Below, piece after piece: positions 15,446 through 38,093 of a DNA stretch of 38,093 nucleotides. Numbering within the stretch: the first letter of the stretch is position 1; every line of letters starts with the position of its first letter. This stretch comes from Chloroflexota bacterium (lineage in GTDB: Bacteria; Chloroflexota; UBA6077; JACCZL01), in NCBI GenBank assembly GCA_020850535.1, contig JADZEM010000073.1:1-38093 (forward strand), written 5' to 3'. The notes beneath the pieces were generated by a model. It saw nothing but the letters and a program-made list of their open reading frames with translations, did not search any database and was not told where the DNA came from. The position numbers and the translations under genes were made by a program.

Positions 15446-15528
15446 CCCACGACCCACGACCCACGACCCACGACCCACGACCCACGACCCACGACCCACG
15501 ACCCACGACCCACGACCCACGACCCACG
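15446..15528. repeat. Tandem heptamer CCCACGA, about 12 copies
   Basis: Eighty-three bases are an almost perfect array of the 7-bp unit CCCACGA, between the permease stop and the convergent folE stop. Just before it (15408-15432) are two inverted copies of the unit (GGGTCGTGG and GGTCGTGGGG), so transcripts from the plus strand could fold back on the array. It is a simple-sequence repeat prone to copy-number change and possibly a bidirectional transcription stop. It is not a CRISPR array, as there are no spacers. Confidence 0.85.
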
Positions 15529-25062: not shown

Positions 25063-25998
25063 ATGGAGCTACGACGACTGGGCAACTCGGGCCTGAAGGT
25101 CTCGGCCATCGGGCTGGGTGGCAACACGCTGGGCGGCACCGCCGACACCGAGACGGCCACCGCCATCATCCACAAGGCGCTCGACCTCGGCATCACCTTC
25201 ATCGACACGGCCAACTCGTACACGAACACCCGCTCGGAGGAGATCCTCGGGACGGCCCTGCTGGGCCGTCGCCAGGAAGTCGTCCTGGCGACGAAGTGCG
25301 GCTGGCCGTATGCCTCCGGGAACCCGTACGAGGGCGGCCTCTCGCGTCGCTGGATCATGCAGTCCATCGACGACTCGCTGCGCCGCCTCAAGACGGATTA
25401 CGTCGATCTCTACCAGGCCCACCGCCCCGACGCCGACACGCCGCTCGACGAGACGCTCCGCGCCTTCGACGACATCGTGCGGGCCGGCAAGGCGCGCTAC
25501 ATCGGCTGCTCCAACTATCAGGCCTGGGAGCTGGCGCAGGCCGTCGGGATGCAGACGGCGGGCCATCTGACGCCCTGGGCCTCGGCCCAGAACCGCTGGA
25601 ACCTGCTCGACGGCCTGGACGATCCGACGCTCATCCCGGCCAGCCGCCGGCTGGGCGTCGGGATCATCCCATACACTCCGCTGGCGTCCGGCGTGCTGAC
25701 CGGCAAGTACCAGCGCGGCGTCACGCCGCCGGCGGGCACCCGGGCCGGCGACATGCCGATGATCCGCCAGCGGATGACCGACGCCCGGTTGGAGGCTGTC
25801 GAGCGGCTGGCACCCTGGGCCGAGGCGCGGGGCCGGTCCACCACCGATCTCGCCATCGCCTGGCTGCTGGCGTTCCCCGAAGTCTCGACGGTCATCGTCG
25901 GAGCGCGCTCACCGGAGCAGCTTGCGCTGAACGCACAGGCGCAGGACTGGGTGCTGACCCCCGAGGAGCGCGACGCGGTCGCCGCCCTCGCCACCTGA
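25063..25998 (+). CDS. Aldo/keto reductase
   Basis: A 311-residue TIM-barrel NADPH-dependent oxidoreductase of the YghZ/Kv-beta-like group. It opens with MELRRLGNSGLKVSAIGLG and carries the catalytic tetrad: Asp in FIDTANSYTN, Tyr in the same stretch, Lys in LATKCGW and His in YQAHRPD. The C-terminal cofactor segment VIVGARSPEQLALNA is present. ATG 25063 is used; the frame stays open far upstream through the dehydrogenase gene, which is an artefact of GC content. It is probably cotranscribed with the zinc dehydrogenase upstream. Confidence 0.94.
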   Translation: MELRRLGNSGLKVSAIGLGGNTLGGTADTETATAIIHKALDLGITFIDTANSYTNTRSEEILGTALLGRRQEVVLATKCGWPYASGNPYEGGLSRRWIMQSIDDSLRRLKTDYVDLYQAHRPDADTPLDETLRAFDDIVRAGKARYIGCSNYQAWELAQAVGMQTAGHLTPWASAQNRWNLLDGLDDPTLIPASRRLGVGIIPYTPLASGVLTGKYQRGVTPPAGTRAGDMPMIRQRMTDARLEAVERLAPWAEARGRSTTDLAIAWLLAFPEVSTVIVGARSPEQLALNAQAQDWVLTPEERDAVAALAT

Positions 25999-26392
25999 GG
26001 GTTGCCGGGGACAGGGAGCAGGCCAGCGACCTGTCAGTCGTAAACGATCGGCCTGGGTCGCTGCCGACGCTTCTCCGTCATCCCGAGCGATGTGACGAAG
26101 GAGCCAGGGCACTTGCATGTTCGTTGGTGTTCCCGAAACGCCGTCAAACGAGCGGTCGGGGCTTGAAAGCCCCGACGAGGCTGCACGACGAGACCAGCAG
26201 GCAATCGCCCTGACGAGGGAGCGAAGTCGAGGGATCCTCCCCGGCGGACCGAGTAGAGACTTCAGGAAGATCCCTTCCACTCCGCTCGTCCCTCGCTACG
26301 GTCGGGATGACGACCAGTGAGTACTGCGTGACCCGGCGACTGACATCTGACGAGCGACGAGCCTCCGTAACCTGTCACCAATCTCCTGTGAC
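25999..26392. other. Repeat-filled intergenic region, no gene
   Basis: Nearly 400 bp without a credible gene between the convergent AKR and RpiB genes. It contains an outer inverted repeat (CGTCATCCCGA at 26076-26086 against TCGGGATGACG at 26302-26312) that encloses a palindromic element, copy C. Inside the outer arms are GAGGGATCC/CCCTCGCT-type motifs seen in dispersed repeats of many bacteria. The last 70 bases hold nothing I can name. Confidence 0.55.
26105..26212 (-). mobile_element. Collapsed 108-bp palindromic element, copy C
   Basis: Bounded by CAGGGCACTTGCATG and CAGGCAATCGCCCTG, the same terminal repeats as the 217-bp copies. Its left part matches the right end of the copy at 37841 read in reverse (TTCGTTGGTGTTCCCGAA, then GTCGGGG), and its right part matches that copy's left end (GCACGACGAGACC). 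The central section between the two inner hairpins is missing, leaving one perfect hairpin at 26155-26176. An imperfect 10-bp direct repeat ACGA(A/G)GGAGC flanks it exactly (26095-26104 and 26213-26222), like a target-site duplication. It encodes nothing, so any movement would need a transposase in trans. Confidence 0.65.
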
Positions 26393-26854
26393 CTACTGTG
26401 CCAGCTCGGCGGCGGCGTCCTGCTCCATCTGCGCCAGCTTTCGTACCCGCCGCCGGAAGTGCTCCTCCGTCGAGAACTCCGCGCCCAGGTACGTCCTCAA
26501 GAGGTCGAGCGCCAGCTTGTCTCCGACGATCTGCGCGCCCAGGCAGAGCACGTTGGCGTCGTCGTGCTCCACGCACTGGTGCGCCGAGTAGACGTCGTGG
26601 CACAACGCCGCCCGGATGCCTGGCAGCTTGTTCGCCGCCATCGCCGCGCCGATACCCGTGCCGCAGACCATAATGCCCCGGTCGGCCTTGCCGGTCCGGA
26701 CCGGGTCGCAGACCTGCCGGGCCACGTCCGGGAAATCGACCGGCTCGCCATGGGTGCCCACGTCCTCGACCTCGTGGCCCCAGGAGCGCAGCGCATCCAC
26801 CACCGGACCTTTGAGCGGCAGACCGGCCAGGTCCGCCCCCACCATGATCTTCAT
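26393..26854 (-). CDS. rpiB: RpiB/LacA/LacB family sugar-phosphate isomerase
   Basis: A 153-residue isomerase interconverting ribose 5-phosphate and ribulose 5-phosphate or a related aldose/ketose phosphate pair. The catalytic cysteine lies in GIMVCGTGIGAAMAANK; the GIRAALCHDVYSA segment and the NVLCLGAQIVG strand are standard. In the first loop the common DHAG becomes DLAG, so the usual histidine there is Leu, which may signal a different sugar phosphate. ATG 26854 is preceded by AAGGGAC; the longer frame adds unrelated residues. It points toward the AKR gene, completing a sugar-catabolic neighbourhood. Confidence 0.9.
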   Translation of the reverse strand: MKIMVGADLAGLPLKGPVVDALRSWGHEVEDVGTHGEPVDFPDVARQVCDPVRTGKADRGIMVCGTGIGAAMAANKLPGIRAALCHDVYSAHQCVEHDDANVLCLGAQIVGDKLALDLLRTYLGAEFSTEEHFRRRVRKLAQMEQDAAAELAQ

Positions 26855-30660: not shown

Positions 30661-31016
30661 CGTTGCTCTCCCAGAAGGCGCGGTCTGCTCGTCTCAGGCC
30701 AGGCGGCCGAGGTCGCGCCTGTCGGGAACGGTAGGCGATCAGGGCCATGCCGTCAAGGCGAGCGGCCGGCCCGCCAGGGTGATTGCACGTTGGGCTTGCC
30801 GTGCAGCGTGGTCGGGGCTTGAAAGCCCCGCCTACCATCCTGCAGTCGCTGCGCGACGCTCCAGTCTGACCGGTCGACGCTGTTCCCGGCTGCCGTCGCG
30901 CAGCGACGGAGCGAGTGTAGACGGGGGTTTCAACCCCCGACTGCGCGTTTCGCGACGGTATGGGAACACCGACGAACATGCAATCGCCCTGGCCGGCCGC
31001 CCAACTGGACTCTGGA
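30661..31016. other. Intergenic region dominated by palindromic element B
   Basis: No gene is credible in these 356 bp. Positions 30775-30991 are a full-length palindromic element (separate entry); 30661-30774 is the upstream region of the VOC gene, and the last 25 bases run to the stop of the next VOC gene. Confidence 0.6.
30775..30991 (+). mobile_element. 217-bp palindromic element, copy B (MITE/REP-like)
   Basis: The ends CAGGGTGATTGCACG and CATGCAATCGCCCTG are inverted terminal repeats. Going inward on both sides come a first hairpin (GTCGGGGCTTGAAAGCCCCG then CCTAC on the left; GTAGACGGGGGTTTCAACCC then CCGAC on the right) and a second hairpin (GTCGCTGCGCGAC left, GTCGCGCAGCGAC right). 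The whole element is thus an imperfect palindrome of two mirrored modules. It has the same length and order as the copy at 37841. GCCGGCC lies just outside both ends, a possible target duplication but weak evidence in GC-rich DNA. No coding capacity. Confidence 0.75.
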
Positions 31017-37840: not shown

Positions 37841-38057
37841 CAGGGCGATTGCATGATGGTCTCGTCGTGCCGCCGCGTCGGGGCTTGAAAGCCCCGCCTA
37901 CCATCCTGCAGTCGCTGCGCGACGCGCCAGTCGCACCAGTGCCGGCCGTTCCCGGTGTCCGTCGCCCAGCGACGGCGTGACTGTAGGCGGGGACTTCAGT
38001 CCCCGACCGCCCGTTCCATGATGCTTCGGGGACACCAATGAACATGCCATCGCCCTG
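37841..38057 (+). mobile_element. 217-bp palindromic element, copy A (MITE/REP-like)
   Basis: The ends CAGGGCGATTGCATG and CATGCCATCGCCCTG are inverted with one mismatch in 15. On the left come GTCGGGGCTTGAAAGCCCCG-CCTAC and GTCGCTGCGCGAC; on the right, in mirror order, GTCGCCCAGCGAC and GTAGGCGGGGACTTCAGTCC-CCGAC. The core from the first hairpin to the second (37878-37925) is almost identical to the same segment at 30811. Flanks show no direct repeat. It cannot encode a transposase. A single-stranded form would fold into nested hairpins, as REP/BIME or MITE elements do. Confidence 0.75.
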
Positions 38058-38093
38058 ATGCTGCTACCAGTGCAATCGCATGTTGATGTCGTC
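38058..38093. other. Window end after copy A
   Basis: The last 36 bases contain GTGCAATCGCATG, similar to the terminal repeat of the palindromic family but without its CCCTG end. A further element might begin beyond the window; this cannot be decided here. Confidence 0.25.

Follow-up and report, generated by a model that had tools for sequence, protein, structure and literature searches.

Copy C, a 108-bp minus-strand sequence in the window (the whole 38,093-nucleotide stretch of DNA analysed), is probably a member of a half-length subfamily of an ISAs1-type MITE, descended from an old collapse between the two inner hairpins of the 217-bp full-length element and already short when it arrived at its present site. 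The family provides a natural series in which the collapse of inverted hairpins appears to have been caught more than once, with crossover points that can be read and with elements still moving afterwards. Among the literature matches listed, the titles and the beginnings of the abstracts contain no description of the MITE family or of compound arrays. The findings are relevant mainly to researchers working on transposons and genome assembly.

Copy C and the site of its insertion

Copy C and its surroundings comprise the following features.

26105–26212, minus strand: copy C, half-length (108 bp) ISAs1-type MITE, from sequence comparison with full copies
26155–26176, minus strand: single central hairpin joining both outer parts, with a 10-bp stem and a 2-base centre
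26177–26212, minus strand: L-end arm with the terminal inverted repeat CAGGGCGATTGC
26105–26154, minus strand: R-end arm with the terminal inverted repeat CAGGGCACTTGCATG (inward reading)
26095–26104, no strand: left 10-bp target duplication, ACGAAGGAGC, from the family-wide duplication and the paralogous empty site
26213–26222, no strand: right 10-bp target duplication, ACGAGGGAGC, matching the left one at 9 of 10 positions
26077–26311, no strand: host palindromic repeat broken by copy C, GTCATCCCGAGC...GTCGGGATGAC, outer limits by inspection

Read on the minus strand, copy C equals the first 46 plus the last 62 bases of a 217-bp copy without a gap, the switch point within the hairpin being ambiguous. 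The original prediction of a 108-bp copy in reversed orientation, whose outer parts are the two ends of the full element, was hence borne out to the base. Compared with the full copies in the window, 26103–26174 aligns inverted to 30922–30993 with 82% identity, and 26157–26212 aligns inverted to 37841–37896 with 89% identity. The junction is GTCGGGGCTT-TC-AAGCCCCGAC; of the perfect 22-bp hairpin that had been described, the ten perfect pairs stand, but they flank a 2-base TC centre. The neighbours of copy C are an aldo/keto reductase gene, which ends at 25998, and a convergent gene for an RpiB-type isomerase. A role as terminator or promoter was considered and rejected, the region 25900–26450 having no terminator-like and no promoter-like site, and Rfam models had no match in the window at gathering score.

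The 10-bp direct repeat with one mismatch that was said to flank copy C is present (9 of 10 positions agree), and it has counterparts across the family. In the 10-bp register, the flanks of 70 full copies have a mean match of 0.556, compared with 0.291 when partners are shuffled, and 26 of the 70 copies match at 8 of 10 positions or better; for 18 halves the mean is 0.622 against 0.305 in the control, with eight copies at that level. The signal is confined to the 10-bp register, registers of 8, 9 and 11 bp being at background, and the five 203/204-bp elements show none (0.36 versus 0.358).

We then compared the broken host repeat with 30 uninterrupted ones. In eight, the spacing is exactly what remains of the copy C locus once the insert and one 10-mer are taken away; 22 deviate from this empty-site spacing by 1–3 bases, and none is spaced as if both 10-mers were present. 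The empty site with a single 10-mer, proposed as a check at orthologous loci, was thus found at paralogous ones, and the uninterrupted repeat at L153:6286 has GCGAAGGAGC at the place of insertion. A fuzzy search for the joined flanks of copy C had no match, while the spacing comparison succeeded. These comparisons identify copy C as an insertion into another repeat, with a target duplication. No other genome holding the element was found at an E value of 1e-5 among 60 relatives, none of the same genus, with the best 13 or fewer candidates scored per genome. The host repeat represents a second palindromic family (GTCATCCCGAGC/GTCATCCCGACC ... GAGGGATC), present at 26077–26311 and at many other loci; GTCATCCCGAGC has 29 matches in 1.23 Mb against none for the control, and some MITE copies lie in or beside this repeat.

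An ISAs1-type family with two length classes

The window contains three further copies.

30775–30991, plus strand: copy A, full-length 217-bp element with the 10-bp flanks GCCGGCCCGC/GCCGGCCGCC, matching at 8 of 10 positions
30811–30835, minus strand: inner hairpin H1 of copy A, with the GTAG tetranucleotide on its inner side
30917–30941, plus strand: inner hairpin H2 of copy A, with the GTAG tetranucleotide on its inner side
37841–38057, plus strand: copy B, full-length 217-bp element and first unit of a tandem array
38058–38067, no strand: 10-bp spacer ATGCTGCTAC from copy B to the next unit, a probable fossil target duplication
38068–38093, plus strand: start of the second array unit after copy B, cut by the contig end
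18663–18702, plus strand: copy D, 40-bp derivative that on inspection combines some 30 bp from the L end with 10 bp from the opposite end

With H1 on the minus and H2 on the plus strand, copy A has the two inner hairpins in inverted order that had been attributed to full copies. Folding of the 217-bp consensus gives a single long hairpin. Besides copy D (40 bp), very short derivatives retaining both ends include a 59-bp form found twice with related sequences (L134:19302–19360 and L152:15402–15460). A short tandem array of CCCACGA units lies at about 15446–15528 of the window.

The assembly to which the window belongs has 7,653,396 bases in 227 contigs and is 96% complete. The 13-base end occurs in it 662 times with at most one mismatch, versus twice for the reversed control. 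Pairing of ends in 1,233,686 bases, which comprise the window and 60 stretches, gave 72 elements, and none with the reversed pattern; some stretches overlap by 500 bases, each element being counted once, and some were chosen for known copies, so the density of elements is no neutral estimate. The length distribution has the two classes proposed as a check on the prediction: a peak at 217 bp (42 of 72) and a second class at 107–108 bp (5 of 72, four of 108 bp and one of 107 bp). Five other elements measure 203 or 204 bp. A profile search of 18 long segments (1,188,590 bases) yielded 70 full and six half copies.

At 217 or 108 bp, the element is too short to encode a transposase and has no gene for one; its ends are CAGGGCGATTGCA/TGCAATCGCCCTG. 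In a genome of the same family, L156 is a 1256-bp ISAs1-type element with PF13808 and PF01609 matches. Its two ends agree with the L end of the 217-bp consensus over the first 18 and 15 bases, and with the R end over the first 17 and 15. For copy C's own ends the shared leading stretch is only 12 and 6 bases long (17–18 of 21 overall), and the transposase remnants in copy C's own genome are identical to the consensus L end in 11 and 5 leading bases. L156 has no clear target duplication of its own (5 of 10). We surveyed 87 ISAs1 loci and found an end pair in 59, using an identity of at least 15/22 and the seed CAG[AG]G, so that these bases are present in the surveyed ends by construction; the 59 include several near-identical copies from single genomes. 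A perfect 10-bp duplication accompanies 35 of the 59, one matches at 9 of 10, one at 8 of 10, and 22 have none. The idea that L and R each descend from the matching end of the G001 IS was dropped, as the R end matches both IS ends about equally (19/21 each).

ISAs1 elements thus resemble the MITE in ends of the type CAGGGCRATYGCAT and in the exact 10-bp target duplication, and differ in being 1170–1546 bp long in the survey and carrying a transposase gene. Bacterial type I MITEs are likewise short and high in copy number, with IS-derived terminal inverted repeats and a target duplication; the present family differs from them by two length classes linked to hairpin collapse and by arrays that apparently move as units. 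On sequence grounds, we assign the family to the non-autonomous ISAs1-type transposons (MITEs), with ends common to an ISAs1 insertion sequence. An ISAs1-family transposase acting in trans would have moved copy C. Its own genome has two truncated ISAs1 transposase genes (PF13808, above the cut-off) with related left ends; no intact ISAs1 transposase was found in the 96% complete assembly, both matches above the cut-off being truncated.

Origin of the half-length copies

Collapse between the inner hairpins is most likely what makes the half-length class. All 26 halves collected have their junction in the hairpin, although length and, in part, similarity to copy C decided which copies entered the set, so that it is no neutral test of junction position. 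Several of these halves were retrieved by a similarity search that used copy C as its seed (best 40 of 500 scored), which favours the kin of copy C. The prediction had staked itself on half-copies not being joined elsewhere; short derivatives with other junctions do exist (40, 59, 59, 77, 79, 133, 160, 172 and 200 bp, some of these pairs perhaps being mispaired ends), and none belongs to the 108-bp class.

The most direct evidence comes from three young halves. Outside the hairpin, L053:102, L140:6484 and L071:137 are 97, 98 and 99% identical to full copies, respectively. Their hairpins, GTCGGGG/ACTTCAGTCCCCGAC, GTCGGGGCTTGAAAGCCCCGAC and GTCGGGGCTTGAAA/CCCCCGAC, switch from H1 to H2 at three points. 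Each of them adjoins an array spacer, and none is flanked by its own duplication (2, 5 and 3 of 10 positions matching). They were therefore probably made inside arrays, and the hairpins involved are maybe those of neighbouring units. We also inspected the hairpin octamers. Among 70 full copies, the H1 octamer is CTTGAAAG in 66, and the H2 octamer is ACTTCAGT in 45 and GTTTCAAC in 15, two being unread. Five of the 26 halves have a chimeric H1/H2 octamer (CTTGAAAC in two, CTTTCAAC in two, CTTTCAGT in one), seven have a parental one, and the octamers of the other 14, copy C included, are of other kinds, eight of these being CTTTCAAG.

A tree was built from 61 of the 70 full copies (those of exactly 217 bp) and 21 of the 26 halves (those of exactly 108 bp), using 93 columns with the hairpin excluded. 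The half/full label changes nine times on the best tree, which is also the bootstrap range, versus a mean of 18.8 after shuffling, and a topology that unites all halves in one clade is rejected (p-AU 8.2e-10). The starred branches alone force only two label changes, and 37 of the 76 inner branches are open because the columns are few. In the young clade, the halves branch from within full copies, a pattern that speaks for loss. This tree of copies establishes that halves arose more than once, and fusion of the element's two inner hairpins seems to have produced short forms on several occasions. H1 and H2 are near-copies in inverted order and therefore also share short direct repeats. In the mechanism we propose, they would mispair in replication or recombination, either within an element or between array neighbours, and the 109 bp between them would be lost. 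As the half keeps both ends, it should be able to go on jumping.

The opposite direction is possible, though on the unlikely side: the half would be an older, single-palindrome MITE that gained an inverted GTAG-palindrome core (131 bp, REP-like), and two-way interconversion may occur. Exchanging the 22-bp palindrome of a half for the core gives 217 bp (108 − 22 + 131), so a gain is possible, above all in the old lineage that includes copy C, and the old halves are diverse. Cores without MITE arms occur at C41:87047–87188 and C13:119276–119411, where the matches stop 1–6 bases outside the hairpins; such solo cores are nonetheless rare (2 of 204 profile matches; a third runs off the edge of a contig), and they may be MITEs that have eroded. 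PMC3733652 reports GTAG-23 repeats of T. roseum within small palindromes, yet a Y1/RAYT transposase that could move the core was not found here, and the nesting of young halves among full copies argues for loss. In their own right, the two solo H1-to-H2 cores are a possible independent REP-like element.

A broader proposal is that the 217-bp element is a mosaic, a REP-like pair in the hairpin of an ISAs1 MITE, with the hairpin as the site of a reversible exchange of core and arms and with compound dimers and trimers that transpose and carry fossil 10-bp spacers; we consider it unlikely. Exchange of arms is suggested by the 203/204-bp class (L037:18178–18381, L039:16231–16433, L043:7355–7557, L053:9317–9520 and L148:2508–2710). 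All five have L-type arms at both ends and all lie in two-unit arrays; one L-type template for arm typing came from this class itself, and typing without that template also gave L. The arms suggest that the class is an arm-swapped form produced by exchange at the hairpins. Two other loci, L039:6791–7109 (319 bp) and L123:14870–15148 (279 bp), are halves with a different palindromic insert in the central hairpin (GATGAAGATT or GATGACGATT ... AATCTTCAT), and the hairpin looks like a target of another element.

Collapse of full-length elements remains the preferred origin of the class, and for the class the original prediction holds, given the young halves and their three crossovers; as an account of copy C as a fresh product it is not supported, the mechanism being at most an ancestral event there. 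Copy C is 88% identical to another half versus 84% to the nearest of the 61 full copies. It belongs to a clade of nine halves (93/65) and, inside this, to a starred group with five members (97/81) and another with three (100/92). A duplication matching at 8 or more of 10 positions is present in five of the nine, and these are exactly the starred five (chance 0.0018 each); the flanks of the other four match at 1, 2, 2 and 6 of 10. Independent collapses in place are unlikely to group in this way, and copy C therefore most likely jumped as a half. We regard it as distinctly unlikely that a full copy inserted at this site and collapsed there to 108 bp with its flanking duplication kept. Such an event would be in line with the young halves that are near-identical to full copies, one of which (C112:46484–46591) sits in an array beside a full unit, but the greater similarity of copy C to a half than to any full copy speaks against it, as does its clade of halves with five duplications.

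The hairpin of copy C points to a longer history. Its octamer CTTTCAAG, the reverse complement of the H1 octamer, corresponds to no parental form and to no direct H1/H2 chimera. It does not occur as H2 in any of the 68 full copies in which H2 was read, so an extra step is needed. According to PMC8604942, template switching between hairpin arms homogenises the arms and inverts the spacer. Such switching may have later re-perfected the hairpin centre of copy C, which would stem from an old collapse and would have inserted as a half, duplicating ACGAAGGAGC.

A reading of the repeats as REP/REPIN elements, with a RAYT (Y1) transposase as their mover, is in our view very improbable. To our knowledge, REP/REPIN elements have neither a long terminal inverted repeat nor a target duplication of fixed length. 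Unlike these, the present family has both, and its long terminal repeats and exact 10-bp duplications are of the ISAs1 type. The GTAG on the inner side of both inner hairpins does recall tail-to-tail GTAG REP dimers. The likeness to GTAG-type REPs/REPINs, including GTAG-23 of Thermomicrobium roseum (PMC3733652), consists of GTAG beside a palindrome and of an inverted (tail-to-tail) pair, while the long terminal repeats and 10-bp duplication set the family apart. A search with Y1_Tnp (PF01797) had no match at E ≤ 1 in copy C's own genome, of which about 4% may be missing, whereas six of 14 control genomes had matches above the cut-off. Given this negative result, the GTAG tags of the inner hairpins are not enough to class the element as a REPIN. 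Chance similarity or an assembly artefact is hardly credible: several contigs among the best 40 of 493 candidates begin or end within elements, where the assembly is fragile, but copy C lies mid-contig and the counts of ends and of paired elements far exceed their controls.

Arrays of elements

A tandem array begins with copy B, and the window stops inside the second unit because the contig ends there. We inspected 23 junctions between adjoining elements, 18 of which have a 10-bp spacer. The order is direct at 14 and L-to-L at five; at the other four it could not be resolved. Three of the L-to-L junctions involve a 203/204-bp unit, which has L-type arms at both ends, and are therefore no proof of inverted pairs; in the remaining two, one has a unit cut by a contig start and one has only an end fragment. 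A reading of the five as inverted (head-to-head) pairs was therefore not kept.

Among 19 arrays of two or three units, the outer flanks match at 9–10 of 10 positions in 11 and do not match in eight. The outer duplication of the matching arrays differs from the spacer. One spacer, AGTCACGAAC, is found at seven places, including four in arrays whose outer duplications are different. This pattern is most simply explained if dimers and trimers, the array begun by copy B among them, move as single units, the spacer then being a fossil of the duplication that belonged to the founding pair. Tandem IS dimers such as (IS30)2 and (IS21)2 consist of two elements separated by a spacer of about target-duplication size. 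The present arrays share this organization, and differ in being non-autonomous, in the 10-bp spacer, and in the recurrence of one spacer at seven places. They suggest that short non-autonomous elements spread as pairs or triplets with a conserved 10-bp spacer, which would be a route for repeat arrays, and for the contig breaks they cause, to seed many sites.

Several contigs start or stop inside such arrays (among the best 40 of 493 candidates). The arrays at C13:5310–5753, C21:4915–5358, C142:33828–34271 and C217:10268–10924 are dimers or trimers with fixed 10-bp spacers and perfect outer 10-bp duplications.
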